Below, in pieces: positions 46,066 through 54,198 of a stretch of DNA of 64,000 nt. The notes under the pieces are model-generated. The model had not been told where the DNA came from. It saw nothing but the letters and a program-made list of their open reading frames with translations, and ran no database searches. The DNA comes from Pelagibius marinus. GTDB taxonomy: Bacteria > Pseudomonadota > Alphaproteobacteria > Kiloniellales > Kiloniellaceae. A program made the translations under genes and the position numbers. Positions within the stretch are counted from its first letter, which is position 1. Each line of letters starts with the position of its first letter. The DNA lies in assembly GCF_014925385.1 (NCBI RefSeq), contig NZ_JACSDK010000013.1, positions 62,001-126,000 on the forward strand, written 5' to 3'.

Positions 46066-47853
<1,788 letters not shown>

Positions 47854-47950
47854 GACGCGTGAGCGATCGCCGGACACAATTGCCGGTTGTTTGCGCAGAA
47901 GACGCCCGATAGCCTGTCCTTCCAGTCTGGCGGGGAGAGGCATCGGGGGC

Positions 47951-50788
47951 GTGGACACGATTTCCAAGACGGGCGCGGCCGCGTTTCCGAGGGTGCGCTT
48001 TGTGGGCAAGTGGCGCGCCTACCAGGCACGGGTCCTGGCCGAGCTGGAAGGCCACCTGGATGACGCGCGGCTCAACATCGTTGCGGCGCCCGGTGCGGGC
48101 AAGACGGTGCTGGGCCTGGAGGTGGTCTGCCGCCTCGGCCGTCCGACACTCATTCTCTCGCCTACACGCGCCATTCGCGACCAGTGGCTCGCGCGTCTGT
48201 TCGATCTCTTCGAAGCGGAAGACGGCAACTGGCCGGCGGGCTGGGGGACCCGGATCGCCACGCCCGGCTGGATCACCTCTACCACCTACCAGTCTCTGCA
48301 CGCGGCGCTGCGCGGCCTTGTCGATGAAGATGAGGCTGACGAGAGTGCCGAGACTGAAGACGCCGACGATGAAAGGGCGGAGGAGGACAGCAAGGCCGCC
48401 GAAATGGCGGCAGCGGGCGAGGCGCTGCTGCAGGCGCTCGACCGCGCCGGGATCGAAACCCTGGTCCTGGACGAAGCGCATCACCTGCGCCGGGCTTGGT
48501 GGGAGAGCCTGCAGGACGCCATCGCCTACCTGCAGGAGCGGCGGCCCGGCCTGCATGTCGTCAGCCTGACCGCCACGCCGCCCTATGATGTCGAGCCGGC
48601 GGAATGGGACCGATACGCCGAGATCTGCGGGCCCGTCGACGCGGAAATCTCTATTCCCGAACTGGTGAAGCAGGGCGACCTTTGCCCGCATCAGGATTTC
48701 GTGCACTTCAGCGTTGCCGAAGAGGCCGTCATCGCCAGCCTGGAGGCCTTTGCCCGGGAGGTGGAGCAGCTGGCTTATGGCTGGGCCCGCGATCCGGTCG
48801 TCCTTGCCTGGGTCCGGGAGCACGACTGGATCGCCGAGCCGGAGGCCAGGGAGGCGGAGATTCTGGCCAGGCCCGGCGCCTACTGCGGCCTGCTGGCGGT
48901 GATGAAGTCGAATGGCCAGCCGTTGCCGTCGCCGGGGCCGGAGATCCTGGGTATCAAGGCGGCCGAAGTTCCAGCGCCCGGTGCGCGCGTTCTAGAGGCA
49001 TTGTTCCAGGAGATCGTGATCGGCGAGCCGCCGTTCTCCGCTGGCGAGATGGGTGAGCGTCTGCGCCGCGAACTGCGCGCCGTCGGCGCCCTTTGGCGCC
49101 GTCGCGTGCGCCTCCGCAAGAGCGAGCACCTGGCCCGCGCGCTGACCGGAACGGCCGCGAAACTGGACAGCATCGAAGCCATCGCGCGCGCCGAGGCCGC
49201 CACCCTGGGCGAGGGGCTGCGGCTGGTCGTGCTGACCGACTACGTCCGCGCCGCGGCAATCACTCGGCCGGCGGATCAGTCGAGCGATGCGCTGGGTGCC
49301 GGCCCCATCCTGCGCCGCCTGGGGCAAGCCGGTCTCGCGCCGCTGCTGCGCCCCGCCATGGTGACCGGCAGCTGGGTGGTGATCCCGGACACCGTGATCC
49401 CGGACTTCCGTGTCGAGGCGATCGGCCACGGCCTGGCGGAAACTGAGCTCACCTTCCAGCCCCTTCCACACATTCCCGGCTGGTCACGAGTGCTGGTAGA
49501 GGGCGGCAAGACCTCGCGGCGCCTTCAGGTCGTCACCAGTCTCTTCGAGCAGGGCAGCCTGCGCTGTCTCGTCGGCACCGCCGCGTTGCTTGGCGAAGGC
49601 TGGGACGCTCCGGCGACGAACTCCTTGGTCCTCGCAACCTCGGTCAAGAGCTACATGCTGTCGAACCAGATGCGAGGCCGGGCGATCCGGAAATCCAAAC
49701 GCCATCCGCACAAGGTCGCAGCGATCTGGCATTTGGCGACGATCTTGCCGCCGGGAACGGAGCTGCTGAACGTCGAGGAGTCGCTGTGGGACCTGCTGCG
49801 CTCGCACCGGCGCGAGGCGTTGGCAAGCGGTACCCTGGACGAGGCGCCGTCGCGGCTGGGTTACGACGCGATTGCGCTGTTCCGCCGCTTTGCGGGCTTT
49901 GCCGGAGTCTCCCACACCCAGCCTCCGGTCATCGAGTCAGGGATTATCCGGCTGGGCATCGAGACGCGGCATTGGACGGTGGCAGCCGTTCGCGATTGGA
50001 ATGCGGTCATGCTGAAGCGGGCCGCCGACCGCGCCGCCGTGGCGCGGGCCTGGTCGGAGGTCTTTTTCGATGCGGGCAAACTGCAGAAGCCGACCACCGG
50101 TGCGGTGCTGCCGCCGCCTGAAGGGCCCAAGGGTATCCGGCGCGTCGCGCTGGGCTGGGCCCTGGCGGGCTTAATCGGTGCGCTCTTTCAGGTCGCTCTG
50201 CTATCGCTCCATACCTTGCGCGCGGGCTGGCGGATCGCACTCGTGGTTCTCGGCCTGGGCCTGCTCGGTGCGGCGCTCTATCACAGCAGGGCGATTTGGT
50301 ACAGCATCACGGCGGGCTCGCCGAGACGCTACATGGTGAGCATCGGGCGCTGCCTGCTGGACGCCTTGAGCGTGGCGGATGTCCTGGATCAGCCCAGGCG
50401 GACGATGGACGTGCGTGTCGAGGAAGAAGGAGGCCCCGGCGACAGGACCTACTGCCGCTTGTCCGGCAGCACACATCTGGATGAAGTCCGCTTCGCAGAG
50501 GCGTCGGTGACCTTTTTCGGAGAGATCGGCAACCCACGGCATATCCTGATCCGTTATCACCGGCGCGGCTTCGTGAGGCAGGTGGATTACCACGCGATAC
50601 CGGCTGAGATCAGCGCCAGCAAGGAGGCGCTGAAAATGCTGGAGAGGTCCTGGTCGGCGCGCTTGGGGCGCTGCGAGATCGTGAATACCCGAACGCGCGA
50701 GGGGCGGCTATTTCTTCTGCGCGCTAGGGTCCTGTCCTACTCCTCTGTCTTCAAGAGCCAGGCGAAGCGGAAGCAACGCTGGGAGTGA
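47951..50788 (+). CDS. SF2 DEAH helicase with C-terminal membrane segments
   Basis: The 945-aa protein has a helicase core: KWRAYQARVLAELE, Walker A AAPGAGKT (Lys51), an acidic low-complexity insert (residues about 120-155, DEDEADESAETEDADDERAE), DEAH near 175-178 (LVLDEAHHLRR), SLTATPPYD, then a second RecA lobe with LVGTAALLGEGWDAPA and NQMRGRAIRK. After about residue 690 come two hydrophobic segments (ALGWALAGLIGALFQVALLS and IALVVLGLGLLGAALYH, about 733-785) and a soluble C-terminal domain. This looks like a membrane-anchored nucleic-acid translocase. GTG 47951 was chosen; a TTG at 47891 is also in frame. The element lies between duplicated target ends. Confidence 0.85.
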   Translation: MDTISKTGAAAFPRVRFVGKWRAYQARVLAELEGHLDDARLNIVAAPGAGKTVLGLEVVCRLGRPTLILSPTRAIRDQWLARLFDLFEAEDGNWPAGWGTRIATPGWITSTTYQSLHAALRGLVDEDEADESAETEDADDERAEEDSKAAEMAAAGEALLQALDRAGIETLVLDEAHHLRRAWWESLQDAIAYLQERRPGLHVVSLTATPPYDVEPAEWDRYAEICGPVDAEISIPELVKQGDLCPHQDFVHFSVAEEAVIASLEAFAREVEQLAYGWARDPVVLAWVREHDWIAEPEAREAEILARPGAYCGLLAVMKSNGQPLPSPGPEILGIKAAEVPAPGARVLEALFQEIVIGEPPFSAGEMGERLRRELRAVGALWRRRVRLRKSEHLARALTGTAAKLDSIEAIARAEAATLGEGLRLVVLTDYVRAAAITRPADQSSDALGAGPILRRLGQAGLAPLLRPAMVTGSWVVIPDTVIPDFRVEAIGHGLAETELTFQPLPHIPGWSRVLVEGGKTSRRLQVVTSLFEQGSLRCLVGTAALLGEGWDAPATNSLVLATSVKSYMLSNQMRGRAIRKSKRHPHKVAAIWHLATILPPGTELLNVEESLWDLLRSHRREALASGTLDEAPSRLGYDAIALFRRFAGFAGVSHTQPPVIESGIIRLGIETRHWTVAAVRDWNAVMLKRAADRAAVARAWSEVFFDAGKLQKPTTGAVLPPPEGPKGIRRVALGWALAGLIGALFQVALLSLHTLRAGWRIALVVLGLGLLGAALYHSRAIWYSITAGSPRRYMVSIGRCLLDALSVADVLDQPRRTMDVRVEEEGGPGDRTYCRLSGSTHLDEVRFAEASVTFFGEIGNPRHILIRYHRRGFVRQVDYHAIPAEISASKEALKMLERSWSARLGRCEIVNTRTREGRLFLLRARVLSYSSVFKSQAKRKQRWE

Positions 50789-50826
50789 TCCTCGTCATTG
50801 AAGTGAGCATCGTTGAGGCTCTTCGA

Positions 50827-50949
50827 GAGGCCAAGCTCGCCACCGCGCGCTTCTTCTTCCAGCGTCTCTTGCCCAAGAGCTCCGGCCACTTCGCCGCCAT
50901 CATGGCCGGCAAGGCCCCGCTCATGGAAATGAAGGAAGCGGCGTTTTAG
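50827..50949 (+). repeat. direct repeat copy B (orphan acyl-CoA dehydrogenase 3' end)
   Basis: This sequence encodes EAKLATARFFFQRLLPKSSG then HFAAIMAGKAPLMEMKEAAF and stops with TAG. It has no start or upstream part of the gene. Nine mismatches to copy A, eight of them silent, show that it evolved under protein-level constraint before becoming an orphan. It is therefore a displaced original end or an end brought in from a related strain, not a recent slip duplication. Confidence 0.88.
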
Positions 50950-51004
50950 GCGCACCTGGGTTCTCTGATGGCGCTGTGGCGTCGGGGCGTGCTACCGCTT
51001 CTAC

Positions 51005-51895
51005 ATGTCCGAATGTCATATCGCCGTTGTTGACGACGAGGGGATCCTTGAAGCGGGGGCCTCGACCGCCGTGGTGCCCTGGTGGTCTTTCACCAAGACG
51101 CTGATCGCCGTTGCCGTGCTGCGGCTCGAAGAGCGCGGCGAGGTGGCCTTGGACGCGCCCCTGGACGGCTATCCCTTCACGACGCGTCAACTGCTGCAGC
51201 ACCGCGCCGGGGTGGGCAATTACGGCGGCCTGCGCGCCTATCACGACGCGGTGGCCCGCGGCGACACACCCTGGTCCCGCGACGAATTGCTGGCCCGGGT
51301 GCCGCCGGAGGACCTGCGCTATCCCCCGGGCGAGGGTTGGGCCTACTCCAACGTCGGTTACCTGCTGCTGCGCCAGCTTGTCGAACAACGCTGTGATGCC
51401 GGGCTGCACGCCGTCCTGCAGGCCCTGGTGCTGGAGCCGCTGGGTCTGTCACAGGCGCGGCTGGCCGAGACGGTGGCGGATATGGACGGCTCGGCCTTCG
51501 CCGGCAACCACGGCTACGATCCGGGCTGGGTCTACCACGGCTGTGTCATCGGCCCGGCAAGCGAGGCGGCGCTGGCCCTGCACCGGATTTTGACCGGCGA
51601 CCTGCTGTCGCCTGCGTCGCGGACCGCCTTGCTGGACCGCCATCCTATCGGCGGGCCGCTGCCGGGGCGGCCCTGGCGAACCACCGGCTACGGCCTGGGC
51701 CTGATGATGGGGGACGTGCTGTGCGACGGCATGACGGCGCCGCGCCGGCTGGCCGGCCATTCCGCCGCCGGGCCGGGCAGCGTCGGGGCCGTCTACCACG
51801 CAGCGGAACGGCAGCGCACCGCGGCGGTCTTCACCGCCGATCCGCAGGAATACCGCGCCGAGTTCCTGGCGGTGCAGCGCCTCTTTCTGGTCTGA
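51005..51895 (+). CDS. class C beta-lactamase-like serine hydrolase
   Basis: The 296-aa protein has the serine beta-lactamase/penicillin-recognising fold motifs: SFTK (SxxK) near residue 28, YSN in EGWAYSNVGYLLL, and a C-terminal region SAAGPGSVGAVYHA where the KTG-like motif is replaced. There is no signal peptide, so it is likely cytoplasmic; a role as an esterase or peptidase is more probable than antibiotic resistance. It starts 55 bp after repeat copy B, so the dehydrogenase may once have been followed directly by it. Confidence 0.82.
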   Translation: MSECHIAVVDDEGILEAGASTAVVPWWSFTKTLIAVAVLRLEERGEVALDAPLDGYPFTTRQLLQHRAGVGNYGGLRAYHDAVARGDTPWSRDELLARVPPEDLRYPPGEGWAYSNVGYLLLRQLVEQRCDAGLHAVLQALVLEPLGLSQARLAETVADMDGSAFAGNHGYDPGWVYHGCVIGPASEAALALHRILTGDLLSPASRTALLDRHPIGGPLPGRPWRTTGYGLGLMMGDVLCDGMTAPRRLAGHSAAGPGSVGAVYHAAERQRTAAVFTADPQEYRAEFLAVQRLFLV

Positions 51896-52051
51896 CGCTG
51901 CGCGTCACGCCCGCTCGCTGCCCGCTCCGTCCCGCACAGTGAATTCCGGGTCTTTCAACCCCGGGAAACTGGCGGGGTGTGATTTCAATGTGTAGGCTCG
52001 GCCGTTAGAGCCGGGTTCCGGCGCATCCACGCAACTGAGAGCGTTGGATCG

Positions 52052-53695
52052 ATGCGGACCGAAGAACCGACAGTCTGGCCTTTTCCCAGCGTCAAGCGGC
52101 GCACGCTGCTGCGCGCCCTGCTGTACGGCGCGGCAAGCGGCGCGGCGCTCGGCACGCTCGGCCTTTCCCCCCGCGCCGGCGAGCTGGCGAGCGAAGAAAT
52201 CGTGCTGACCATGCTGGGCATTCTGCAGCCGGCCTCCGCCGAGGAGGTGTTCTGCATCCTGGAACTGCTCCACGACGCCGCCGCTGCCGAAGGCATGGCG
52301 CTGGATCTCGAACGGCCCCGGGCCGGCGAGATTTCCGAGGCCGTCGAGGCGCTGCAGCGCCAGGGCGCGATCCTGCCGGTGCAGGCGAATCCGGTCCGGC
52401 GCTATTCAATGACCGCCGCGGGCAACCGCAGGCTTAGCCCCCGGCTCAGGGCCACGCGGGATACGACCCGGCTGTTCTTGCTTCACGGTCCCCGCGCGCG
52501 CATCATGGAGATGTCGCGCGAGGGACGCGAAGGGGAGTCGGGCGGCGCTTCGCCGCCTTCAAACCTAAGGTCTCTCATCGATTCACTCGGCCGACCCCTT
52601 GGGTCGACCGAGGACGATGGCAACCAACCGCCCACGCGGGCGTGGCCGGTTGCTCGCCATCGTCTGTGGTCCCGACACTGTCGAACCAGCCCCCTGGCGC
52701 TTTCGCGCGACACCTCGCTCCGTTTCCTTTCCTTCGACAGCCTCGAGCAGTTGCGCCTTGCCGGCGGCACGAGTGGAATGGTGTCCAGGTTGCGTCTCTC
52801 GCCGCAGGGTATCGCCCTTTCTCTCGGGGTTTCCCTGCAGTTTCTGCGCTGGCTGCGCGATACCCGCTACGACCGGCACTACCGGAGCTTTGCGATCCCG
52901 AAACGCGGCGGCGGCAAGCGCTGGATCGAGAGTCCGCGCATCTTCCTCAAGGTGACCCAGCGCTTCGTGCTGCACCACATCCTGAGCGGCCAGCCCGTGC
53001 ATGACACGGTGCATTCCTTCGTGCCGGCGGTGCAGGCCGGGGAGCTGCGCAATTCCATCACCAACGCCCGGCGCCACCTGGCGAAGCCCTATGTCGCGAA
53101 GATCGACATCAAGGATTTCTTCGGCTCGCTGCGCGGTTACCTCGTCGACCAGGCATTCCAGGACACCGCCTTACTTAACGCCGATGCCCGCCGCCTCCTC
53201 AGCAGTCTCTGCACGCGGCGCAACGCCCTGCCGCAGGGCGCGCCGACCAGCCCGATGATCTCCAACCTGATCCTGCGCCGCTTCGACGAGAACATGGCCC
53301 GCTTGTGCAGCGAGCTGGACCTCGTCTACACGCGCTATGCCGACGACATCACGATCAGCGGGGCGGTGCGGGAGGACGTGGAGCTTGCGGCCTGGTTCGC
53401 GCGCAAGGGGCTGACGGGCGAGCCGCTCACGCTGCCGGTGAACGAGGACAAGTCGCGCATCCTCTCCGCCGGCCAGCAGCAGCGCGTGACCGGCGTCATC
53501 GTCAACGAACGCGGGCTGCCGCCGCGCCGGATGCGGCGGCGCGTGCGGGCCATGTTCCACCAGGCCGCCCTCGACCCGGCAAGGCTGCGGGAGGAGCGCG
53601 CCCGGCTGGGTGGCTATCTCGCTTATTTCCGGGCCTTTCCCGACTACCCCTCCGGCGAACTGGCCCGCTATGCGCGGGTCCTGGCGCAGAAGTAA
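52052..53695 (+). CDS. retron: winged-helix-like N-terminus and reverse transcriptase in one open frame
   Basis: The frame encodes up to 547 aa. Residues 1-150 look like a winged-helix accessory domain (ISEAVEALQRQGAILPV, RRYSMTAAGNRRLSPRLRAT, RDTTRLFLLHG). Residues 153-242 coincide with a highly structured RNA (52508-52716) and use rare codons (CTA, AGG, TCA), so they may not be real protein. Residues 243-547 are a retron-type RT: IPKRGGGKRWIESP, NARRH (region X, 338-342), KIDIKDFFGSL (Asp352), PQGAPTSP, YTRYADDITIS (429-432), and VTG (479-481). No maturase or endonuclease domain is present. The RT may instead start at ATG 52778 (305 aa, the normal size). Retron RTs make msDNA and many give phage defence. 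Confidence 0.85.
   Translation: MRTEEPTVWPFPSVKRRTLLRALLYGAASGAALGTLGLSPRAGELASEEIVLTMLGILQPASAEEVFCILELLHDAAAAEGMALDLERPRAGEISEAVEALQRQGAILPVQANPVRRYSMTAAGNRRLSPRLRATRDTTRLFLLHGPRARIMEMSREGREGESGGASPPSNLRSLIDSLGRPLGSTEDDGNQPPTRAWPVARHRLWSRHCRTSPLALSRDTSLRFLSFDSLEQLRLAGGTSGMVSRLRLSPQGIALSLGVSLQFLRWLRDTRYDRHYRSFAIPKRGGGKRWIESPRIFLKVTQRFVLHHILSGQPVHDTVHSFVPAVQAGELRNSITNARRHLAKPYVAKIDIKDFFGSLRGYLVDQAFQDTALLNADARRLLSSLCTRRNALPQGAPTSPMISNLILRRFDENMARLCSELDLVYTRYADDITISGAVREDVELAAWFARKGLTGEPLTLPVNEDKSRILSAGQQQRVTGVIVNERGLPPRRMRRRVRAMFHQAALDPARLREERARLGGYLAYFRAFPDYPSGELARYARVLAQK
52508..52716 (+). ncRNA. candidate retron msr-msd RNA
   Basis: The outer ends are complementary. GAGATGTCGCGCGAGGG (52508-52524) pairs with 52700-52716 (CTTTCGCGCGACACCTC) with one mismatch and two G-U pairs, as expected for a1/a2. 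The msr half has stem-loops GGCGGCG-CTT-CGCCGCC (52541-52557) and TCGG-CGACCC-CTT-GGGTCG-CCGA (52587-52611). The msd half has a long hairpin (52613-52664) with 20 of 23 positions paired plus a G-C at the tip, followed by CCAG-CTGG. It lies immediately 5' of the RT, the canonical position. The branching G is not assigned. Confidence 0.8.
52778..53695 (+). other. alternative start: stand-alone retron reverse transcriptase
   Basis: ATG 52778 is the first Met after the a2 end of the RNA and would give a 305-aa RT, the usual size for this family, starting MVSRLRLSPQG and containing all RT motifs. A TTG at 52751 is another possibility. Given the RNA structure upstream, separate translation of the RT is more plausible than a 547-aa fusion, but the frame has no stop codon in between. 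Confidence 0.6.
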
Positions 53696-53724
53696 GAGGC
53701 GCCGAGGCCGGCCCTGGCCGCCCG

Positions 53725-54198
53725 CTATCCCCGCTCTAGGCGGCACTGGAAGCAGTTGTTGCTGGCCGAGCGCAGGTGGATGTAGGCGATCTCCGGGTCT
53801 TCGAACAGTTCGGCGGCGCGGGATTCGATCTCCGTGGTCGGGATGACCTTGCCGCTGCCGTAGACGATGCGGTCGTCGTGGCCGTAGCCGCGCATGAGAA
53901 TGACCTCGCGCCGCACGAAGATCCCCGGCTTGCCCGCCGTCTCGCCGTAACGCGGGCAGTCTTCGGCGTGGACGAAGATGGGGCCGACCTCGGCGTAAGG
54001 CTGCGGGCCGGGGAAGGGGCGGTGGGCCAGCACCAGCATGGGGGCGTCCCCGGCGATGTCGTCCAGGCAGTGGCGGCAGGGATTGCCGCCGCCGTCGGAA
54101 GTCATTCGCTCGGGCGCCTGGCCGTTGGCGTCGGGGGCGCCGCGGCGCCAGGTCTGGACGAGGTCGCTGTCGAGGGCGACGAAACGCAAGTCGATCAT
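53725..54198 (-). CDS. DUF1203 family protein
   Basis: The 157-aa protein has the DUF1203 pattern: NPCRHCLDDIAGDAPMLVLAHRPF, YAEVGPIFVHAEDCPRY, then VYGSGKVIPTTEI and a C-terminal SASNNCFQCRLERG. Conserved cysteines (CRHC, and FQC near the end) suggest metal binding. Function unknown. It is convergent with the retron and divergent from the SDR gene. Confidence 0.82.
   Translation of the reverse strand: MIDLRFVALDSDLVQTWRRGAPDANGQAPERMTSDGGGNPCRHCLDDIAGDAPMLVLAHRPFPGPQPYAEVGPIFVHAEDCPRYGETAGKPGIFVRREVILMRGYGHDDRIVYGSGKVIPTTEIESRAAELFEDPEIAYIHLRSASNNCFQCRLERG

Follow-up and report, generated by a model that had tools for sequence, protein, structure and literature searches.

Organization of the locus

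The window, by which we mean the whole 64,000-nucleotide stretch of Pelagibius marinus DNA that was analyzed, contains a single reading frame in which a winged-helix domain, an msr-msd-like RNA and a retron-type reverse transcriptase (RT) follow one another (Table 1). The frame lies in a variable cargo site that is flanked by an acyl-CoA dehydrogenase gene and a DUF1203 gene. The same site is empty in genome G004, and in G007 the helicase is its sole cargo; the helicase of G002, too, lies next to DUF1203. In G005 a beta-lactamase-fold gene is followed by the DUF1203 end with no retron between them. Beyond the helicase the 3' end of the dehydrogenase gene is present a second time and ends at the stop codon, as if cargo had entered at the 3' end of this gene.

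Table 1. Features of the retron locus and its surroundings, with positions counted from the first nucleotide of the window
Feature	Position	Strand	Basis or remark
Variable cargo site between acyl-CoA dehydrogenase gene and DUF1203 gene	46066..54198		Holds the retron
Large DEAD/DEAH-type helicase	47891..50788		ResIII match; C-terminal hydrophobic stretch
Second copy of dehydrogenase 3' end, 124 nt	50826..50949		92.7% identical
Beta-lactamase-fold serine hydrolase gene	51005..51895		
Single open frame (winged helix, RNA, RT), 547 aa	52052..53695	+	PADLOC PDLC02940 RT_II-A match
N-terminal extension, residues 1-47	52052..52192	+	Alignments, without counterpart in relatives; start codon uncertain
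Winged-helix domain, residues 48-145	52193..52486	+	PDLC02940 match, structure model, PadR/MarR-type matches
msr-msd-like RNA, 209 nt, codons 153-222	52508..52716	+	Covariance model R1 built without the window; fold z = -4.9
a1 repeat	52508..52524	+	16/17 pairs with 52700-52716
msr hairpin, kept in all aligned relatives	about 52540..52558	+	Fold prediction, covariance model, alignment
Second hairpin, peculiar to the window	about 52586..52612	+	Fold prediction
Long hairpin, presumed msd	about 52613..52664	+	Fold prediction; long stem at corresponding place in relatives
a2 repeat	52700..52716	+	Pairing with a1
Retron reverse transcriptase domain, residues 248-547	52793..53695	+	Profile, PDB sequence and fold matches

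The helicase, for which PADLOC gives weak matches only, also occupies this site as cargo in G002 and G007 (59-63% identity) and is a candidate defense gene. The beta-lactamase-fold gene is same-site cargo in G005 (72% identity), where such a gene, a DUF1203 3'-end remnant and the start of an apparent second gene copy succeed one another (L162:9078-9246), suggesting a tandem duplication. As a possible effector of the retron this neighbor was rejected, having no PADLOC match and being present at the G005 hotspot without a retron.

The retron frame runs through 547 codons from 52052 to 53695, and the earlier observation that no stop codon separates the accessory region, the RNA and the RT is confirmed by its translation. 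Residues 48-533 are covered by the PADLOC RT_II-A model PDLC02940, which has 477 positions (E = 6e-104). Its positions 7-97 also match residues 1-152 taken alone (E = 4e-12), and the winged-helix part is therefore a piece of a known, annotated fused protein. AlphaFold models of the window and locus sequences give a winged helix at residues 48-145 and a good RT from residue 248, with pLDDT below 50 at residues 1-45 and 146-247. The latter stretch, which comprises the RNA codons 153-222 plus their flanks, is predicted to be a disordered linker. Structural matches of the winged-helix model include PadR/MarR regulators (Z up to 9.0, r.m.s.d. of 3.0 over 86 residues) as well as chain 8qbl_G, the Eco1 effector (Z of 8.1, r.m.s.d. 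of 4.1 over 110 residues); because these matches are nearly tied, they define the fold class only. Pfam has no family for the winged helix of the window. An earlier note, made from the sequence alone, had assigned residues 1-150 to a winged-helix protein, which holds for residues 48-145 by profile, model and fold matches and does not hold for residues 1-45, where model confidence is low. The codon-position G+C of the N-terminal extension resembles that of the winged-helix part. A membrane effector in this extension was also considered and is unsupported, since its hydropathy is not exceptional and the model confidence is low.

Lineage of the reverse transcriptase

The translation contains NARRH (338-342), KIDIKDFF, LPQGAPTSP, YADD (429-432) and VTG (479-481), that is, the whole retron-type motif set proposed beforehand (NAxxH, IDIKDFF, PQGAPTSP, YADD and VTG). 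RT_II-A is the best PADLOC profile, with RT_XIII as runner-up at 9e-64. Among PDB entries the Kva2 and Ec86 RTs are closest in sequence and Ec86 is closest in fold. The group II maturase model scores 64 bits against a cut-off of 300, the Drt2 and Drt3a models remain far below their cut-offs, and folds of the group II intron, DGR and DRT type rank below retron RTs. The enzyme thus has the NAxxH, VTG and YxDD motifs as well as the lineage of a retron RT, and it is not closest to group II introns, DGRs or DRTs; a position inside the retron clade was the outcome on which the earlier note had staked its reading.

A structured RNA inside the coding frame

The RNA adjoining the RT has the expected retron parts (a1/a2, msr and msd), here within the frame. 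Its ends pair at 16 of 17 positions when G-U is counted, with exactly the coordinates and the single mismatch described before, and none of 300 shuffles reached this pairing. For a 246-nt segment the predicted folding energy is -122.4 kcal/mol (z = -4.9), and 0 of 200 shuffles folded as well. The two msr hairpins and the long msd hairpin that had been proposed are all predicted; the first is conserved and the long stem is matched in relatives, but the second is absent from that place in them. Rfam gave no match in the window at gathering thresholds.

Could this be an ordinary fused protein, with hairpins that arise by chance in GC-rich coding DNA and no functional RNA at all? GC-rich sequence readily folds, and evidence from the window alone would be moderate. 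We therefore turn to the comparison of relatives, which argues strongly the other way. In an alignment of eight relatives, with the window left out, both sides have changed in 24 of 44 consensus pairs; shuffled controls give 9.9 +/- 2.3, and sliding the partners gives 3 to 9. Such compensatory changes affect 8 of 10 pairs in a1/a2 and 9 of 15 in the msd stem. A covariance model built from relatives only detects the window segment from position 52507 with E = 9e-8 (next match in the 64 kb: E = 4.3). What the model recognizes in the window is a1 together with the msr hairpin; the two msd-side hairpins of the window are its own and unmatched.

Synonymous divergence collapses between a1 and a2. 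For the pair L133/L059, the RNA has a dS of 0.02, against 0.99 for the winged helix, 0.96 for the linker after a2 and 1.05 for the RT; for L135/L140 the RNA has 0.08 and the regions beyond it have 1.3-1.9. Codons with unchanged amino acids are all identical between a1 and a2 in L133/L059, but not outside. Flank dN/dS values of 0.05-0.2 indicate protein selection in both close pairs. Strong compensatory change and frozen synonymous sites are the opposite of the strict codon-level conservation without covariation that the earlier note had named as fatal to its proposal. Chance hairpins are thus already contradicted for the family and, in our judgment, extremely improbable for the window: the RNA of this family is real, in its constraint and in its structure.

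The fused family and its single origin

The fused protein is already in the databases (PADLOC, RefSeq), and E. coli protein WP_021558548.1 bears the RefSeq name 'retron St85 family RNA-directed DNA polymerase'. Full-length fused members were found by a phylum search in G750 (E = 2e-197) and G738 (E = 7e-130), and viral contigs hold further ones, including L058 and L059. Matches are present in 8 of 5,426 complete E. coli genomes; seven cover at least 80% of the query, and the eighth, shorter one is a full-length, more distant gene. All five E. coli loci examined lie between the integrase and psu genes of P4-like satellites, three of them adjoining tRNA-Sec. This satellite hotspot carries defense systems including retrons (PMC9122126). 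A Klebsiella plasmid copy (L056:4000-5470) has frameshifts in the effector, the winged helix and the RT with the RNA structure intact. A search of genome contigs with the window protein returned RT-level relatives only, and PADLOC family searches of the window's order and class returned no fused member except the window. Methanosarcina acetivorans was not counted as a fused member, as it gave a match at E <= 1e-55 and none at 1e-75.

A tree of 89 RTs unites the ten fused ones in a single clade (SH-aLRT 95, quick search), within which branches are long. Sister to this clade is L055 (G734), in which the NDT gene, the winged-helix gene, the RNA and the RT are all separate. There, a1 follows directly on the stop codon of the winged-helix gene, and a2 overlaps with the start codon of the RT gene; the L055 winged helix matches positions 10-98 of PDLC02940 (E = 2e-7). 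From this layout, fusion required the loss of the stop codon and an open frame through the RNA. The window has the one open frame and an RT within the fused clade. Judging from this tree, the fused arrangement is a family trait of single origin and not a peculiarity of this genome.

Probable translation through the RNA

The RNA coding frame is stop-free in all eight intact genes compared, and the other two frames contain 1-5 stops each, save one frame of the window. The chance of an open RNA frame is 0.41 for the GC-rich window, where an open frame alone is unsurprising, and about 0.04, 0.12, 0.07 and 0.04 for the other four lineages (range 0.03-0.41). By our own arithmetic the product for five independent lineages is about 5e-6. 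Four members (G750, G738, L058 and L133) have no in-frame ATG, GTG or TTG between a2 and the RT core. In E110019-type E. coli copies (L137:3309-3473; also L134 and L138) 39 nt of the msd hairpin have been lost, in frame; these copies should yield a shorter msDNA and provide a natural deletion mutant. Amino-acid selection inside the RNA is invisible, there being few differences and no codon-position pattern under the nucleotide constraint.

Taken together, the open frames, the missing start codons and the in-frame deletion favor translation through the RNA, short of proof, and the sequences are best explained if the RNA also encodes a disordered linker of the protein. The earlier note had left a choice between this and separate parts that merely lack a stop codon, and the comparison of genes supports the former better.

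Winged helix and RT might still be made as separate proteins from a locus with a genuine RNA, through ribosomes that start internally, re-initiate or bypass the hairpins, or through cleavage of the linker, in which case the open frame would be secondary. The predicted disorder of the linker would suit such a scheme, and so would the in-frame ATG, GTG and TTG codons after a2 in the window, the in-frame ATG inside the RNA just before a2 in the E. coli copies, and the unfused sister, which makes both proteins separately. However, four members have no start codon after a2 and those of the others are not conserved; moreover, the frame has stayed open in five deep lineages, and separate reading of the parts would not enforce this. 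We regard separate proteins as unlikely.

How the RNA is released may differ among members. In enterobacterial copies a promoter-like sequence, TTGACA-16-TAAATT, ends 0-2 nt before a1 and is identical in 5 of 5 copies spanning the stretch; in L133 it lies inside winged-helix codons (L133:4281-4308). Three plus-strand matches this good occur in 2.6 kb, and we estimate a chance of ~1% for one at the exact place of a1. Its position suggests a separate short transcript from a1 in enterobacteria. The sequence is confined to these copies and missing from other members, and a promoter scan in the window found none; non-enterobacterial members may obtain the RNA by processing of the long transcript.

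The effector

Relatives carry an NDT-type gene upstream (PDLC02929, E = 2e-23 to 1e-75). In G750 the NDT effector is joined to an N-terminal trypsin-like, LmuA-like (protease-like) domain (L053:5329-6576) and in G738 to an alpha/beta-hydrolase domain (L054:4600-6009), forms that look unusual for II-A retrons. The winged helix had been proposed as the accessory region; because the relatives have this separate upstream gene, it is probably not the toxic part.

Neither the window nor its genome contains an NDT gene by models PDLC02928, 02929 and 02930. Type II-A combines an RT of the II-A lineage with an NDT-type effector gene; the window has the former and its clade relatives have the latter as well, so that the locus is a retron of the II-A RT lineage but not a complete II-A system. 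The window copy might therefore be an orphan or decaying retron that has lost its effector and with it defense, leaving an intact-looking RT and RNA. That the three models find no NDT gene nearby or genome-wide, and that relatives have theirs directly upstream, speaks for such a loss. On the other hand, the frame is uninterrupted over its 547 codons and none of the RT motifs is missing, and a replaced, unrecognized effector may be present, for example in the N-terminal extension or in a gene elsewhere. An orphan is to us a serious possibility, although we lean somewhat against it.

Proposed mechanism and implications

We consider it likely that the locus represents a retron with an RT of the II-A lineage, formed when a winged-helix gene and an RT gene fused across the RNA between them, and that this RNA is used twice, the msr-msd now being coding as well. 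A long transcript would be translated into one protein consisting of the winged helix, about 100 unstructured residues and the RT; 70 residues of this linker would be read from the RNA and the remainder from its flanks. This RNA segment, whether it comes from the long transcript or from a short transcript that begins near a1, would fold as msr-msd, which the RT domain would bind in order to copy the msd hairpin into msDNA. The winged helix, carried on the RT chain, probably touches the msDNA or the effector. In relatives the NDT-type effector is presumably the toxic part of what may be a phage defense, and in the window this effector is either missing or unrecognized.

A bolder version, which we put forward tentatively and think rather doubtful, is that any one transcript serves either translation or reverse transcription, with the fused RT binding and copying a template in its own message, and that the window retron is one gene without a separate effector. 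If true, msDNA formation would consume the mRNA of its enzyme and translation would unfold the template, a built-in switch between protein and sensor DNA that the clade would have maintained throughout its long divergence.

To our knowledge, retron RNAs have been described as lying outside genes. A literature search that did not include the key classification paper (Mestre 2020) found no description of an RNA embedded in the frame. An msr-msd in a coding frame pits the ribosome against the reverse transcriptase on one RNA, a conflict that is testable in E. coli, which has intact copies in P4-like satellites, and it is relevant to the expression and processing of retron RNAs. The family offers a clear series from a separate winged-helix gene to an RT fusion, and retron RNA searches limited to intergenic DNA miss such cases.

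Comparison with known systems

By profile and fold the RT lineage is that of the type II-A Retron-Eco1 (Ec86), which consists of an NDT-like/DNA-binding effector, the msr-msd and the RT. An NDT-type effector is also found in relatives of the window, and that of L058 weakly matches the Eco1 effector. The window differs from Eco1 in having the winged helix N-terminal on the RT, the RNA inside the joint gene and no NDT gene.

The protein described by PDLC02940 and WP_021558548.1 (E. coli P4-like satellites) is the same fused protein at full length, but both are protein records and neither marks an RNA inside the frame. Compared with these copies, the window has its own N-terminal extension and two msd-side hairpins and lacks the NDT gene. 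The unfused sister L055, whose RT is the nearest outside the fused clade, has the same order of parts and differs in the winged-helix stop before a1 and the RT start overlapping a2.

Single-gene fusions such as RT-Toprim (Eco2/Ec67), RT-TIR and RT-protease likewise carry an extra domain on the RT chain. In the known examples of those fusions this domain is at the C-terminus and the gene does not include the RNA, whereas the window's family has an N-terminal extra domain, with the RNA placed between the two domains.
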